DNA of 45,115 nt. Source: an uncultured Rubrobacteraceae bacterium (lineage in GTDB: Bacteria > Actinomycetota > Rubrobacteria > Rubrobacterales > Rubrobacteraceae). Made by a program: the position numbers and the translations under genes. Of the stretch, positions 29,244 to 40,712 are shown piece after piece. Location: the NCBI GenBank assembly GCA_902806065.1, contig CADCVE010000025.1, forward strand, positions 1 to 45,115. Direction: 5' to 3'. Within the stretch, counting starts at the first letter, position 1. The number at the start of each line of letters is the position of its first letter. Under the pieces are notes generated by a model. The model did no database searches. It was not told the origin of the DNA and was given only the letters and a program-made list of their open reading frames with translations.

Positions 29244-30725
29244 TTAGCCTCGCCGGGCGGCGCGCAGGAGGCCCACGCCACCGGCCAGGAGGCCCACGGC
29301 GGCCTGAGGCCACGCGACGAGGCGCGGGTAACGCAGGCCGAGTAGGGAGATGCCCAGTACGCTGGCCGAGACGGCGACTCCAAGCTTGCGTTCGTAGGCG
29401 CCCAGGTAGGCGCTGTCGGTGGTGCCTCTCAACGCCTCGCCTCCCAACCTGGAGGCCGTGGCGGTCGCCGCGCCCGAGCTTCCCCGGAGGGCTCCGGGGA
29501 AGCTGCCGCGGTTCGTCCGGCGCTGGTCTCGCCGCTCGCCCTCGTCGATCTTCCGTTCTGGCACCGCCCTCGGTCGGATGCTGCCGGAGCTACTGAGGAG
29601 CCGTATTTCGCGTGCGTTCTGCAGGTCTTCCTCGAACATCTGCTCTATCTCCGCACCGAAGGAGGGGTCTTCGGAGAGGAGATCCGCCTCCCAGTTGGCC
29701 AGGAGCCCCGAGAAGTTCAGGTTCGTCGAGCCCACGCGCGAGAACCGCGAGTCGGCGACGTGGGTCTTTGCGTGGATCATGGGCCCGCCGTACTCGAAAA
29801 TGCGCACCCCGGCCTCTAGCAGCGGCCGGTAGCCCGTGCGCGAGAGGGCGCCTATCCAGGGCAGGTCATTGGTCGCGGGCAGCAGTATCCTTACGTCCAC
29901 GCCGTCGCGCGACGAGGATATGAGGGCCTGGGTGAGCGTGGGGGCCGAGAGGAAGTAGGCGTCGGTTATCCACATCCGCTCCTCGACCGAGGCCAGGAGG
30001 ATCTCCAGGGTGCGCAGCACCCGCACCCTACCCGGTTCCTGAATCACCACCCGCGCATCGCGTTCCCCGGCGGGCGTGATATCGCCGGCCTCCGGGCGTT
30101 CTCCGGGAGGCAGTGGCTTCGCTCCAGAGAGGTCCCACGCCCCCGCGAAGGCTCGCTCGGCGTCCGCGACGGCCGGTCCGCGGAAGGCCACTGCAGTGTC
30201 GCGGTAAGGGAGGCCCGTCTCCGAAGATCTCTCCAGCCAGCCATCGGCGATACAGACCCCGCCGACGGAGGCGTAAGAGCCGTCCACCCCCACGAGCTTG
30301 CGGTGGTCGCGCCGCATGAAGCTTCGCACCCCCCGGCGCAAACTAGGCGGGTTGACCGCTCGCACCTCCGCCCCCGCCTCACGGAGCCCATCCCAAAAAG
30401 AGCGCGGCACGTCCGCCGAACCGAACCAATCATAGAGGACGCGCACTGGCACCCCCTCCCTGGCCTTTGAGGAGAGGGCGTCGGCGAAGCGGCGTCCTAC
30501 GCCGTCGTTCTCGAATATGTAGTTCTCCAGATGCACCCACCGCTTGGCGCCTGCTATAGCCGCGAGCCAGTCCTCGTAGGTGGCAGGTCCATTCTCGAGC
30601 AGTCTCAACTCGTTGCCGGCCCTGAGCGGTGCATCGCTCGCGCGCCGTATCGCTCGCTCCAGGCGTTCGCTACTCGCGGTCGGGACCGTATCGCTTTGCG
30701 ATGTGCTGGATCTGCCTGCGGACAC
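29244..30725 (-). CDS. Phospholipase D-like protein (cardiolipin-synthase type) with C-terminal membrane anchor
   Basis: A 493-aa member of the PLD superfamily with two HKD motifs: HRKLVGVDGSYASVGG at about residue 165 and HAKTHVADSRFSRVGSTN at about residue 320. Both are complete, which fits cardiolipin synthase or another phosphatidyltransferase. Unlike ordinary bacterial Cls, there are no N-terminal membrane helices. Instead there is an Arg-rich linker (ERKIDEGERRDQRRTNRG) and a C-terminal pair of hydrophobic segments (VSASVLGISLLGL, AAVGLLAGGVGLL). The GTG start follows GAGAGGAG. It is divergent from the AI-2E transporter gene. Confidence 0.87.
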   Translation of the reverse strand: MSAGRSSTSQSDTVPTASSERLERAIRRASDAPLRAGNELRLLENGPATYEDWLAAIAGAKRWVHLENYIFENDGVGRRFADALSSKAREGVPVRVLYDWFGSADVPRSFWDGLREAGAEVRAVNPPSLRRGVRSFMRRDHRKLVGVDGSYASVGGVCIADGWLERSSETGLPYRDTAVAFRGPAVADAERAFAGAWDLSGAKPLPPGERPEAGDITPAGERDARVVIQEPGRVRVLRTLEILLASVEERMWITDAYFLSAPTLTQALISSSRDGVDVRILLPATNDLPWIGALSRTGYRPLLEAGVRIFEYGGPMIHAKTHVADSRFSRVGSTNLNFSGLLANWEADLLSEDPSFGAEIEQMFEEDLQNAREIRLLSSSGSIRPRAVPERKIDEGERRDQRRTNRGSFPGALRGSSGAATATASRLGGEALRGTTDSAYLGAYERKLGVAVSASVLGISLLGLRYPRLVAWPQAAVGLLAGGVGLLRAARRG

Positions 30726-30820
30726 GTCTCTCGCTCCTCTCCGGTGTACTCAAGCCACCCTGCTGCTCTCTTCTCTCCCCACCGCAATCGCCGTGACTGT
30801 CAGTGAGATACACTGCCCGG

Positions 30821-32047
30821 ATGGCCGGTGAAAGAGATTCTACGCGACCGGACCCGGAGCCACCCGCGAATCACCGGAACACTCCGCCGGAGCACAGCAG
30901 TGTGGGAGTCAAGCCCGGACGTGAGAGGGGAACCGCGAAGCGGGAGCGCGGGCATAAAGGCTCGACGGCCGAACCGGACGTTACCGCGCGTCCGTTTACG
31001 CCGATTCCGGTCTCCAGGCGTGCCCGCAACGTGCTGCTCCTGGCCGTGCTCGCCGTGCTCGCGTACGTCGTGTACCTGGTGCCGGACGTGCTCACGACGA
31101 CTATCGGTGGGATCGCGCTGGCCCTCGTGCTCTCTTTCCCGGTGCGCTTCCTGGAGCACTTCTTGCCGCGGGGTTTAGCGATTCTCCTCTCGTTTCTGCT
31201 CCTGGTGGGGCTCGTCCTGCTGGCGGCGCTCTTCCTCGTACCGATCATCGCGGAGCAGTTCGCGTCCCTGGTCGGGTCCGTGCCGTACATAGTAGGCGTC
31301 GCGGAGCAATACCTGAGCGACGCCTTGAACCTGCTGGAGGATAGGAACCTCTTGCCCAGCGATCCGGGAGAGGTCGCCTCCAGGGTGAGGGATGCTCTGA
31401 CCAACGCCACGAGCTCCATCGCCGGGGACATGCTCGGCGGGGTGTTCGGCTTCGTCTACGGTACCTTCAGCTTTGCGCTGACCCTCTTCGGGGTGATCTT
31501 TGTCGGGGCCTATCTGCTATCTGACGTGCGCAGGGTGCAGGCTACCTACCTGCGAACCGTACCCCATGCCTACCGGCGCGACGCGCGCATTCTCTGGAAC
31601 GCCTTCGGCTTCTCTCTCGGCCGTTATCTGAGCGGGCTCGCCTTGGTGCTCTTTATTCAGGGCGCGGTCTCGGCGTTGGGGATGTGGATGCTGGGCGTGC
31701 CGTATCCTCTGGTCCTGGGCGCCTGGGTCTCGATCACGGCGGTCATACCGTACCTGGGCGCGTTCCTCGGCGGCATCCCGGCGTTGCTCGTGGCGCTTAC
31801 CGTCAGCCCCACGACGGCGCTCCTGACGGTGCTGCTGTTCCTGGTGATCCAGCAGCTAGAAGGCAACTTCCTGACGCCGAAGATACAGGGGAACGCCCTG
31901 CACGTACACCCTATTCTGGTCTTTCTGGCCGTGATAATCGGCGGGGGACTTGCGGGTATGGCCGGCGTGATCGTCGCCGTACCCGCCCTGGCGGTTCTGC
32001 GGATCATCTTCGACTTCTTCCGCGTCCGCCTCTGCACGGATAACTAG
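30821..32047 (+). CDS. AI-2E family (PerM-type) membrane transporter
   Basis: A protein of about 408 aa. The first 75 residues are hydrophilic, Pro/Arg/Glu-rich and of unknown role. Eight or so helices follow, with the family block LEGNFLTPKIQGNALHVHPILVF and VPALAVLRIIFDF. The family includes exporters of AI-2 and sodium/proton antiporters, so the substrate is open. Start uncertain: ATG at 30821 or GTG at 30803; neither has a good ribosome site. It is convergent with kptA, 31 bp apart. Confidence 0.85.
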   Translation: MAGERDSTRPDPEPPANHRNTPPEHSSVGVKPGRERGTAKRERGHKGSTAEPDVTARPFTPIPVSRRARNVLLLAVLAVLAYVVYLVPDVLTTTIGGIALALVLSFPVRFLEHFLPRGLAILLSFLLLVGLVLLAALFLVPIIAEQFASLVGSVPYIVGVAEQYLSDALNLLEDRNLLPSDPGEVASRVRDALTNATSSIAGDMLGGVFGFVYGTFSFALTLFGVIFVGAYLLSDVRRVQATYLRTVPHAYRRDARILWNAFGFSLGRYLSGLALVLFIQGAVSALGMWMLGVPYPLVLGAWVSITAVIPYLGAFLGGIPALLVALTVSPTTALLTVLLFLVIQQLEGNFLTPKIQGNALHVHPILVFLAVIIGGGLAGMAGVIVAVPALAVLRIIFDFFRVRLCTDN

Positions 32048-32078: not shown

Positions 32079-32588
32079 CTACCGGCGCGAGAGGTAGCCC
32101 GGCGGGACGTGCTCCACAAGCCACACTTCATTGCCGGAGCGGTAGAAGCTGTACCCGTGATGGTACATCTCGTCCGCCGCAACAGCGAGCACCACGGGGC
32201 GGCCCCGGCGGGCGCCGACCACCCGCGCCGTAGCCTCGTCGGGCGATAGGTGGACGTGATGCCGCCGCATCTTCAGGAGGCCACTCTGTAGAATCTCGTC
32301 CACGTTGCGCTCGGGCGTGCCGTGGTACAGGATCGCGGGCGGCGGCGCCGGTTCGAGCTCCAGGTCAACGGACGCGCTGTGTCCTTGCTGCGCCCGGAGC
32401 AAAGTCCCCGAATCATCGAACGCGAACCGCTTTTTGTCGTTGCGCGCGACGACCTCCTCGAGTTCGTCGCGCTGGATCCGGAACCCGTTGCGAACACTCG
32501 CCGCCAGCAGAGCATCCACCTCTACCCAACCACCGGGCATCAACGCGAGCCCTAGCCTCTCCGGTTGATGACGCAGATGCTTACTCAA
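32079..32588 (-). CDS. kptA: RNA 2'-phosphotransferase, apparently truncated at the 5' end
   Basis: KptA/Tpt1 family, which removes a 2'-phosphate from RNA using NAD. Visible family blocks are SKHLRHQPERLGLAL (with the catalytic Arg-His pair), GGWVEVDALL, DKKRFAF, ILYHGT, RRHHVHLS and DEATARVVGARRG. Normal members have a start codon and about 10-15 residues before the block K-Y/F-L-S. Here similarity begins at KYLSKHLRH and the codons before it are recombinase sequence. The only start is a TTG at 32588 that overlaps the recombinase stop, and no ribosome site precedes it. If expressed, it depends on coupling to the recombinase. The catalytic core itself looks intact. Confidence 0.85.
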   Translation of the reverse strand: MSKHLRHQPERLGLALMPGGWVEVDALLAASVRNGFRIQRDELEEVVARNDKKRFAFDDSGTLLRAQQGHSASVDLELEPAPPPAILYHGTPERNVDEILQSGLLKMRRHHVHLSPDEATARVVGARRGRPVVLAVAADEMYHHGYSFYRSGNEVWLVEHVPPGYLSRR

Positions 32589-34266
32589 GTATTTTCGGTT
32601 GTACCAACTCTGGACCGGGGAGGCCGCTTACCTCGACTTCCATACTTCCGTCCGGGTGCTGCAACGCTTTTAGCTGCAGCAGTTTATAGAGATGCCGGCG
32701 TTCTTTGGAGGCGAGTGAGTCCAACGCCTCGGGAGCTATCGTCGCGTAATGTTCGAGAACGGCCTCTTTGCCCCGCTCCAGTTCCGCGATGTGCTCCCGT
32801 TGGTTCTTCAGGGTCGCTAGCTCTTGCTCGGCCGCCTCGCGGGTTTCTTCAAGGCTCGCGAGCTTCACTCGCAGCTCGTCGTAGGAGAGTAGCCCCTGGA
32901 TCGCCATGTCCTGCGCCCGGGCACGCTGACGTTCCACCTCAGCCAGCTTGTCCAGCCACGTCTTTGCCTCGCGCTCTGGATCTCCCCGCGTCTCCTTACG
33001 CTTGAGCTCGATCATACGCTCGAGGTCGGCGCGTAACTCTTCGGGTTTTTCCATAAGGTCCCGGACGTACCGCCAAATCTTTACATCGGCCTCCTCGGCG
33101 CGGTGCTGCTTGGTGTGATCGCAACCGTTCCTGCTCCTGTAGCGGCCACCGCATCGGTAGTAGAAGTAGACGTGTTCCCGGATACTGCCGCTGGTGGTAG
33201 TCTGCGCGTTCATCATATATCCGCAACGGCAGCACCGTAGCAGGCCAGAGAGCTCCCAGACCCTGCGCCCGGAGGGCGGCGGTCGGCGGTTGTCCTTGAT
33301 GGCTGCCCGAGCGGCGTCCGCCAGCTCGCGCGGAATGCCGGCGTCGGGCACCGGGACGGCTAGCCACTGCTTGCGGTCCCTCACCTGGGCCTTGATCCGC
33401 TGACGATAGAGTCTTTCGCCTCCAGCGGCTTCAGACACCTGCCGCTTCGTTATCTGCTTCTTGCCATAGTAAGCGATGCCGTAAGGCACGTCGGGATCGA
33501 GCGTCGCGGCCACTTCGGGCGCCACCAACTCTGCTACCTCCCCGGCTGTGTGTGGCCGGTATAGGTCGCTCAGAATCAGGTTGCGCAGCGTCGGCCGGTT
33601 CCACCGCTCCTGCCCCCTGGGGGACCGCACTCCCTCTCGCTCGAAGGTCTTGATTACTGCGTAGAAACTTTCGCCCCGCGCCACCATCTCGAAGATGTGT
33701 CGTACTACCCTCATCTGTTTCTCATCCACCATGAGGCCGTCGCGTGCGCTGTTGTAGCGGTACCCGTAGCCGGGTGAGTAGCCGGCTACCAGCTTGCCCT
33801 GCCGGAGCTTCCGGTGCTTGCCTCTCCGGGTTCGCTCGGCTATCTTCGCCCGCTCGTACTTGCCCAACTGGTCGAGGATGCCGTCGGTCAACTCTCCCTC
33901 TGGGGAATCGTCTCCTCGATCGTTTAGGGCGCGGATCTTGGTTCCGTGCTCCTCAAACTCTTTGCGGATCAGGTAGTGGTAGGCTGGCTCGCGGGCGAAC
34001 CGGTCCCGATCCTGGGCCAGAACCACGGAGACGCCGCCGGTCGCCACGAGGTCGCGCACCCGGTCCATTCCGGGCCGCTCCAGGGAAGCCCCGCTCTGGC
34101 CAGGGTCGGCTACTTCCTCAACGACCTCATACCCCTCGCGGGCCGCGTATCCCCTCAAAGCCTCCAATTGCTGCGCCAGCGAGTAGCCGCTCCTTACCTG
34201 CTCCTCTGTGGACACCCGTGCGTACAGGATAGCCTGCTTGGGCTGATGGCCGTTATTGCTCGACAT
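32581..34266 (-). CDS. Large serine recombinase (integrase type)
   Basis: A 561-aa large serine recombinase. It has the resolvase catalytic domain (about 10-150) with nucleophile Ser19 in ILYARVSTEEQ and the Arg cluster in QDRDRFAREP; a recombinase domain (about 180-300); a zinc ribbon with CCRCGYMM and CGGRYRSRNGCDH (about 345-385); and a coiled-coil rich in Glu/Arg (about 410-510). Family members integrate or excise phages and other elements at short att sites. The ATG follows GAGGAGTAGGCG and is 3 bases after the XRE gene stop. The gene ends exactly where the kptA coding block begins, implying that the insertion point was in kptA. Confidence 0.93.
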   Translation of the reverse strand: MSSNNGHQPKQAILYARVSTEEQVRSGYSLAQQLEALRGYAAREGYEVVEEVADPGQSGASLERPGMDRVRDLVATGGVSVVLAQDRDRFAREPAYHYLIRKEFEEHGTKIRALNDRGDDSPEGELTDGILDQLGKYERAKIAERTRRGKHRKLRQGKLVAGYSPGYGYRYNSARDGLMVDEKQMRVVRHIFEMVARGESFYAVIKTFEREGVRSPRGQERWNRPTLRNLILSDLYRPHTAGEVAELVAPEVAATLDPDVPYGIAYYGKKQITKRQVSEAAGGERLYRQRIKAQVRDRKQWLAVPVPDAGIPRELADAARAAIKDNRRPPPSGRRVWELSGLLRCCRCGYMMNAQTTTSGSIREHVYFYYRCGGRYRSRNGCDHTKQHRAEEADVKIWRYVRDLMEKPEELRADLERMIELKRKETRGDPEREAKTWLDKLAEVERQRARAQDMAIQGLLSYDELRVKLASLEETREAAEQELATLKNQREHIAELERGKEAVLEHYATIAPEALDSLASKERRHLYKLLQLKALQHPDGSMEVEVSGLPGPELVQPKILE

Positions 34267-34269
34267 CGC

Positions 34270-34476
34270 CTACTCCTCATCCTTCTTGACAAGCTCCCTC
34301 GGCTCTACCTTCAAAGCTTCCGCCAACTTGCGGATGGTGCTGGTACGGGCCTCTGGGTAGCCGTTCTCCAGCCTCCAGACTGTCCCGTAGGCAAGGTTCG
34401 CCATCCTGGCGAGTTCTCGCTGGGAGATGACCCTATCCTCTCTGAGTCTCTTCAGCTTCTGCACATCGACCTCCAT
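34270..34476 (-). CDS. XRE/Cro-type helix-turn-helix regulator
   Basis: A 68-aa single-domain HTH protein (VISQRELARMANLAYGTVWRLENGYPEARTSTIRKLAEAL) with the typical recognition helix. The ATG at 34476 is chosen; the frame is open from a TTG at 34512. Its stop is 3 bases before the recombinase start, so the two are one transcript. It most likely acts as a repressor of the recombinase and of the divergent gene at 34601, as in small integrative elements. Confidence 0.88.
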   Translation of the reverse strand: MEVDVQKLKRLREDRVISQRELARMANLAYGTVWRLENGYPEARTSTIRKLAEALKVEPRELVKKDEE

Positions 34477-34600: not shown

Positions 34601-34996
34601 GTGAGGTTCGTACCCAGAACGGAGGCTACCAAGATCATCGAGGAGCAGGACACAGGCGAATTGACACGGATCGCCTGGCGCGCCGCCGTGCCCGGCGAAC
34701 GCCACGGGTTCGCCGTCCTCGAGCTCTCTAGCGGCAAGGTCATGCCGTATTCCTGGCCGGCCGACAAGGACTACCCCGGCTTCTGGAGGTTCTTGGTGCT
34801 CGTGTGGTGCCACGTTGATGCTCGCGCCGAGCCCGAGGAGACCTGGGAACTCCCTTCCGGGCGCGACCTGTCGGGGATGTCCGACGAGGTGATCGAGGAG
34901 GAGCTCGTGACCCTCGCTCGACGGGAAGACTTGGACTGGCCAGGGATCGAGGAAGGCTTGGAGATGTCCTACTCATGCCCCTGGCTAGAGCGATGA
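34601..34996 (+). CDS. Hypothetical protein of the recombinase element
   Basis: A 131-aa acidic protein with no recognised domain. Visible features are WRAAVPGERHGFAVLELSSGKVMPYSWPADKDY and a Glu/Asp-rich C-terminal half. The GTG at 34601 has GAGGAAGGG at good distance. It is divergent from the XRE/recombinase genes, the place where accessory genes of small integrated elements usually lie. Confidence 0.6.
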   Translation: MRFVPRTEATKIIEEQDTGELTRIAWRAAVPGERHGFAVLELSSGKVMPYSWPADKDYPGFWRFLVLVWCHVDARAEPEETWELPSGRDLSGMSDEVIEEELVTLARREDLDWPGIEEGLEMSYSCPWLER

Positions 34997-35732: not shown

Positions 35733-36017
35733 CTATATCGATTTCGAGCTAGCTTCATCAACCTCAGTCTCCAAGTGATCTCTGATCCACACTATGACGT
35801 CCATAGAATCACGCTCCAGGTCGCGGGCGTCGAGCGCCACGACTTTATTACACCTGTTGGCAAGGGCAGATAAGTCATCGAGCTCCGCGCCGAAGTTCAC
35901 TATCACACTTACCCTGTAGCGTTCTGGATCACGTTCGGAGCCTTTCAGTGTCGGCTTGAGATCGTAGCCCATCTTCTCGACCTCGCTTAAGATCTTCTCA
36001 GCTTCTTCCCTCTTCAC
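35733..36017 (-). CDS. Hypothetical 94-aa protein
   Basis: A small acidic/basic mixed protein with no recognised family. An N-terminal helix (REEAEKILSEVEKMGYDL) is followed by a strand-like RYRVSVIVNFGAELDDLSAL and VVALDARDLERDSMDVIVWIRDHLE. The GTG start has AAGGG upstream. The balanced composition and the ribosome site make it more likely real than not. Confidence 0.5.
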   Translation of the reverse strand: MKREEAEKILSEVEKMGYDLKPTLKGSERDPERYRVSVIVNFGAELDDLSALANRCNKVVALDARDLERDSMDVIVWIRDHLETEVDEASSKSI

Positions 36018-39665: not shown

Positions 39666-40712
39666 GTGACCGATCTCAGGGTGGCAGAGGACAGGAATAG
39701 GGCGATAGGCGCCGCCGTCTCTCACATAGAGAAGCAGCACGGCAAAGGGGCGATCATGCGCATGGGCGACGAGCCGCTACGCAAGGTCGCCTCTATCTCC
39801 ACGGGTGCCCTCGCCCTTGACCTGGCGCTCGGGGTTGGCGGCTTGCCCAGGGGCCGCGTCGTCGAGATCTTCGGCCCTGAATCCAGCGGTAAGACCACCC
39901 TTGCTTTGCACGTCATCGCCGAGGCCCAGAAGGCGGGCGGCCTCGCCGCCATCATCGACGCCGAGCATGCCCTCGACCCGACCTACGCCCAAGCCATAGG
40001 GGTCGACCTTGAGAACCTGTACTTCTCCCAGCCCGATAACGGGGAACAAGCCCTGGAGATCGCCGACACTTTGGTCCGCTCCGGTGCTGTGGACCTCGTG
40101 GTCATCGACTCCGTCGCCGCTCTCGTGCCCCGGGCCGAGATAGAGGGTGAGATGGGGGACTCGCACGTAGGACTTCAGGCTCGGCTAATGAGTCAGGCTT
40201 TGAGGAAATTGTCGGGTTCTTTGAGCCGATCTGGGACGACGGCGATCTTCATCAACCAGTTGCGGGAGAAGATCGGGGTGATGTTCGGGTCTCCTGAGAC
40301 GACGCCGGGAGGAAGGGCGCTCAAGTTCTATTCGAGCGTCAGGCTCGACATAAGGCGGATAGGGGCGCTAAAGGTCGGCAACGACACGGTGGGGAACCAG
40401 ACGAAGGTCAAGGTCGTCAAGAACAAGGTAGCACCGCCATTCAAGGTTGTGGAGTTCGACATCATGTACGGTGAGGGCATCTCCAAAGAGGGGAGTCTTC
40501 TGGATATCGGTATTGAGAACGCGGTGATTCAGAAGTCCGGTGCCTGGTTTGCCTACGGCGACGAGAGGTTAGGGCAGGGTCGCGAGAACGCCAAGCAGTT
40601 CCTCAAGGACAACGACGAAGTGCGCGAGCGTATCCTCGCGGAGATCTACGAGGAGCTAGGCTTGGGTACTTTCGAGGAAGTGCTTGAGGAGGAGACACCC
40701 ACAGAACTGTAA
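39666..40712 (+). CDS. recA: Recombinase A
   Basis: A 348-aa RecA, the central strand-exchange and SOS-coprotease protein. It has Walker [10 protein letters not shown] (about 70-78), [21 protein letters not shown], loop L2 region [21 protein letters not shown], and the usual acidic C-terminus. The GTG at 39666 follows GAAGGAGAGTACATT. No recX follows, as it often does in actinobacteria; instead a hypothetical gene begins 20 bp downstream. Confidence 0.97.

Follow-up and report, generated by a model that had tools for sequence, protein, structure and literature searches.

Gene organization at the kptA locus

The stretch of DNA analyzed here (the window; 45,115 nucleotides of an uncultured Rubrobacteraceae bacterium, contig CADCVE010000025.1) carries a large serine integrase gene that runs directly into a shortened gene for the RNA 2'-phosphotransferase KptA. 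It is contig C25 of a 3.75-Mb draft genome (112 contigs, 95% completeness). A gene for an XRE repressor, the integrase gene, and the body of kptA follow one another head to tail on the minus strand without real gaps (Table 1). The kptA remnant matches the KptA family of Pfam from profile position 8 onward (PF01885, 162.6 bits) and also scores above the cut-off for NCBIfam NF002014.

Table 1. Coordinates of features in the kptA region of the window (ORF, open reading frame; aa, amino acids)
Feature	Position	Strand	Remarks
attL region	32581..32640	-	element DNA (integrase 3' end) up to 32595; kptA DNA from 32594 downward
TTG, first start codon in the kptA frame	32586..32588	-	ORF 32588-32079; overlaps the integrase stop (TTGAGTAA)
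kptA (RNA 2'-phosphotransferase), 3' part	32079..32594	-	171 codons and stop; 10-13 codons and start absent
Large serine integrase, 561 aa	32581..34266	-	last codons and stop inside kptA DNA; Pfam and PHROG_95 matches
XRE/Cro-C1-type repressor gene, 80 aa	34270..34512	-	HTH_3; first ATG 34476; ends 3 bp before the integrase start
Orphan ORF, 131 aa, divergent from the XRE gene, possible cargo	34601..34996	+	matches no family
Orphan ORF, 94 aa, possible cargo	35733..36017	-	no family above cut-off

The integrase has an N-terminal resolvase domain (PF00239, E 8.6e-31) together with Recombinase and zinc beta-ribbon domains and a long C-terminal part (PF07508 and PF13408, Zn_ribbon_recom), and it matches the PHROG_95 integrase family at 7.3e-84. 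The catalytic serine motif LYARVST is present, and its longer form LYARVSTEEQ is invariant across the family alignment. By these features the protein is a large serine recombinase, for which attP x attB catalysis is predicted. A first-pass annotation had named a large serine integrase and an XRE repressor here, and both identifications hold. An IS607-type transposon was considered and rejected; the similarity is weak and confined to the catalytic domain.

The junction between integrase and kptA

The minus-strand junction reads ...CAACCGAAAATACTTGAGTAAGCATCTGCGTCATCAACCG. In one frame the integrase ends with P-K-I-L-E-stop, and in the other the KptA block KYLSKHLRH begins. The TAA stop codon of the integrase (32583-32581) lies 12-14 nt within kptA, so the two genes meet at this block as first described. 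Intact kptA genes are available from four relatives that have no recombinase at this position. Their starts read MHGNKDRRLLRLSKYLSK in G009 (81% amino acid identity), MRSDEERRLLRLSKYLSK in G032, MDQKRLVRTSKFLSK in G008, and MDEKRLVRTSKFLSK in G005, and each has 10-13 extra codons and its own start codon. The kptA contigs of these relatives carry none of the integrase matches listed. The window frame joins the kptA genes of the relatives only from KYLSKHLRH onward, and DNA similarity breaks abruptly at AAATACTTGAG (position 32594). Because the similarity ends there, kptA lacks its native leader, its start codon, and its initial 10-13 codons at the junction. The longer kptA genes of the relatives with their own starts, and the break at 32594, therefore indicate that kptA was cut by an insertion. 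The first-pass annotation, which had already reported the start and first codons as missing, had named as the contrary finding relatives with the same short N-terminus and recombinase-free upstream DNA; the longer genes exclude this. They also allow attB to be defined. Nothing convincing was found in the way of repeats or a hairpin at the junction (DNA fold z -0.26).

The limits of the attL region were set by where similarity to two empty sites (L042 and L045) starts, which does not fix the crossover to the base; it presumably falls within this region. To the left of kptA, the window shares synteny with G008 over 22.5-29.1 kb and with G009 over 25.7-29.1 kb; to the right no contiguous counterpart was found in the genus. 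In G008 and G009 kptA directly adjoins cyd-like genes; in the window a phospholipase-D-like gene and an AI-2E transporter gene (29244-32047) separate the two.

Related integrases in the order

Integrase matches occur in 32 of the 39 genomes of the order, often several per genome, and some are distant or short pieces only. A scan of the genome contigs with the single integrase protein returned nothing, and with an alignment as the query it returned 80 loci. The window integrase is 53-57% identical to its sister integrases, whose C-terminal tails do not align past about residue 545. Of the 36 sister loci examined, most have an XRE homologue immediately upstream of the integrase gene. The XRE-integrase pair is a recurrent module of the Rubrobacteraceae.

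Eight junctions could be defined against an empty site, a small sample set by which homologous empty sites were among the fetched DNA. They interrupt kptA in the window, an SDR gene (L053), pdp (L080), comEC (L055), a Mn-catalase gene (L048), an MBL-fold gene (L061), an unnamed gene (L047), and an aldo/keto reductase gene (L253). No usable junction was obtained for L051 from the pair L051/L061 or from the pair L070/L216, and these were left out of the count. When L047 in G020 was compared with near-complete relatives as a further empty-site test, the matches were too scattered to fix the ends of the element. In all eight junctions the integrase frame is open across the boundary; its stop codon comes 4-30 nt past the point where similarity to the empty site starts, and in one case 191 nt past it. 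The homologous empty sites of L055, L048, L061, and L080 carry the same stop, so in these four cases the integrase stop is host-encoded. At kptA and L053 the homologues differ at the position of the stop, and in L253 and L254 the stop is in the core or just beyond it. It is safe to say that attP and the 3' end of the integrase gene overlap.

A stricter rule for the family would be that attP is built into the last integrase codons and that integration swaps the tail and stop of the integrase for target-encoded ones, which would give a single overlapping integrase-target unit. Free and integrated integrases would then differ slightly, and a co-directional target, kptA for example, could be expressed from the element. 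We regard this generalization as improbable. Sister elements insert into many unrelated genes, and the idea that they always enter 5' ends in the sense direction was rejected, as targets occur in both orientations. Among the loci L050/L076, L055, L058/L069, L064/L065/L206, L079, and L051/L061, several integrases have a target in common, for example radC or a TPR gene before sucA, and competence genes are targeted more than once. L058 and L069 have integrase and target in common and differ in their upstream DNA. At L046, L048, L050, L051, L064, and L065 the contig ends no more than about 1.5 kb upstream of the integrase, as if the interior of the element were repeated or variable in the population.

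A complete sister element

One sister element is complete. On the viral contig L253, a 9.25-kb element lies inside a split aldo/keto reductase gene, and its second end (attR with the other half of the target gene) is present. An intact homologue of the target is in L052, contig C59 of the window's own genome. The element is flanked by 12-bp core repeats, GGTGTGATCGTG at the left and the same at the right bar one base, which are identical in L254. Besides the integrase and an XRE protein, its genes specify an AAA protein, a P22-like major capsid protein, a scaffold-like protein, and a terminase divided between two ORFs. Elements of about 9 kb with scaffold, P22-like capsid, terminase, and integrase genes are found in L253 (1-10405) and likewise in L254, L255, and L256. 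The large terminase subunit is split alike into ATPase-like and RNase-H-like ORFs in L253 (5986-7619), L255 (777-2359), and L256 (1099-2681). No portal or tail gene was seen among the ORFs of this type, which may be a capsid-carrying phage satellite of the Rubrobacteraceae. The L253 capsid and terminase have no match in the window or its genome, and the window element is consequently not assignable to the capsid-carrying type; the capsid part of this result is weak, as that query had no match in any genome of the order.

State of the kptA remnant

The remnant contains no internal stop or frameshift. Its pairwise ratio of nonsynonymous to synonymous substitution rates (dN/dS) against relatives is 0.12-0.20, similar to that of intact pairs, and for the most part this low value reflects time before the insertion. 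The Arg-His-Arg-Arg tetrad of KptA/Tpt1 enzymes (Arg18, His19, Arg68, and Arg121 in CthTpt1; PMC6333775) is retained in the alignment; the N-terminus is incomplete. The TTG that overlaps the integrase stop is the only start codon upstream of the catalytic Arg-His. A product initiated there would lack the Ser and Lys that immediately precede it. In RslTpt1, Ala at the corresponding positions left the enzyme active in vitro, and the Lys change gave a modest temperature-sensitive phenotype.

No clear Shine-Dalgarno sequence precedes the TTG. Scans, which carry little weight in this group, found no terminator-like site between integrase and kptA and no minus-strand promoter match. The arrangement would permit read-through from the integrase gene, followed by weak re-initiation at the TTG. 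Loss or strong reduction of KptA is nonetheless the likely effect, and it is doubtful that the remnant yields a still active product.

Origin of the junction

A mobile serine-integrase element has very probably inserted into the 5' end of kptA, as the first-pass annotation proposed. An element carrying the XRE repressor and the large serine integrase would have entered by recombination between its attP and an attB near kptA codons 11-16. Given the overlap between attP and the integrase 3' end, the integrase frame of the integrated element would run over attL and stop inside kptA, which would keep its body and lose its start codon, leader, and about a dozen codons. We infer that the window integrase itself made this insertion. 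The points in favor are the break at 32594 against four relatives, the intact recombinase domains, the XRE-integrase module, the eight like junctions, the core repeats of L253, synteny on the kptA side with none on the element side, and a remnant that is open, has a low dN/dS against relatives, and keeps its tetrad.

What weighs against an insertion concerns the other end of the element. The missing kptA codons were expected there, and these codons, the leader, and the core are absent from both strands of the window. The kptA 5' part was not found in the draft genome either with a pattern based on the relatives, which diverged sequence could escape. An attR with the other half of kptA was found in neither the contig nor the draft genome, where an assembly gap is possible. 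Beyond 36.8 kb on this side, the genes (hydrolase, TetR, recA, and others) are unlike those of a mobile element. The contig thus has no recognizable second end, so neither the right end nor the size of the element can be read from it, and the earlier description of a typical small integrative element goes beyond what the contig shows. That attR lies in an assembly gap and that the right half has been lost are about equally probable.

If the right half of the same insertion was later deleted or rearranged, the window would hold a stranded remnant unable to excise, with the 5' end of kptA lost. We give this somewhat less than an even chance. It would account for the absence of the kptA 5' codons from the contig and the failure to find them in the genome, and for the presence of metabolic genes and a second recA within a few kilobases. 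In G005 and G009 a stomatin operon is the upstream neighbor of kptA; in the window's genome this operon lies at the end of contig C91, and no kptA DNA was found beside it there. However, in a draft of this completeness attR may fall in a gap, the pattern search could have missed a diverged 5' end, and the integrase and XRE genes are intact.

It is unlikely that the insertion acts as a gene-control device, with kptA switched by excision or its remnant driven by an element promoter as described for mutL below (PMC3430984). The sense orientation, the overlap TTGAGTAA, the lack of a terminator-like site between the genes, the retained catalytic residues, and the mutL precedent would all fit such a device. 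In contrast, neither a minus-strand promoter match nor a clear ribosome-binding signal for the TTG was found, the second end that excision requires has left no sign, and sister elements enter unrelated genes in either orientation. Still less credible is a chimeric assembly that joined two unrelated pieces at 32594. The contig does come from a draft genome, but the anatomy of the junction recurs at seven sister junctions that arose independently, and a random misjoin would not yield such a match. A naturally short kptA with no insertion would have an open frame from the TTG; it is rejected, with next to no chance of being right, on the evidence of the four relatives with their additional codons and different upstream DNA.

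Neighboring features

The short accessory genes of the first-pass annotation exist as two orphan ORFs (34601-34996 and 35733-36017), and their accessory role is a guess since no family matches. The 131-aa ORF matched only its own copy in the 39 genomes of the order searched, and no relatives of either ORF were found in viral contigs. No Rfam families were found in the window between 30 and 45 kb. The second recA is full length (39666-40712, plus strand) and out of its usual context; the other recA of the genome is in a conserved neighborhood (C54:61823-62797), and the two RecA proteins share 90% identity across 325 residues. Near the contig end (44668-44783), a GC-rich palindromic repeat around TTACCCCCGGTACC is present three times, in both orientations.

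Relation to known elements

Serine-integrase elements are well known to enter coding genes, as in a survey of large serine recombinases and their att sites (PMC10083194). As in that survey, the integrase lies beside attL, attB is in a gene, and a clade has many targets. The survey also reports an enrichment for competence genes, and comEA and comEC are among the targets in this order. Points of difference are kptA as a target, for which the comparison does not extend to the survey's tables, and attL sites that regularly overlap the integrase frame. The phage integrases of SV1 and phiC31 (PMC4068962) have the same domain plan and an attP near the integrase gene. Unlike in these phages, the junction here is inside the integrase reading frame; this comparison leaves out other integrase families.

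By analogy, the closest worked precedent for a control device is SpyCIM1. SpyCIM1/SpyCI islands of Streptococcus pyogenes sit at the 5' end of mutL and sever it from its promoter, and in a decayed SpyCIM1 copy a promoter inside int restores mutL expression (PMC3430984). The element in the window likewise occupies the 5' end of a gene for nucleic-acid repair and separates it from its promoter. Excision and expression were measured for SpyCIM1, whereas the window element is known from its sequence.

Implications

Integration of this sort is ordinary, and beside it stands one structural regularity, the integrase frame that crosses the junction. kptA joins the list of integrase targets. Related serine integrases within one order use many coding genes, several of them with readable attB sites, and they provide material for studying target change. 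The same set of integrases is potentially useful for genome-engineering tools. The system would also allow one to ask whether a host-supplied integrase tail alters the reaction and whether KptA works without its first dozen residues.
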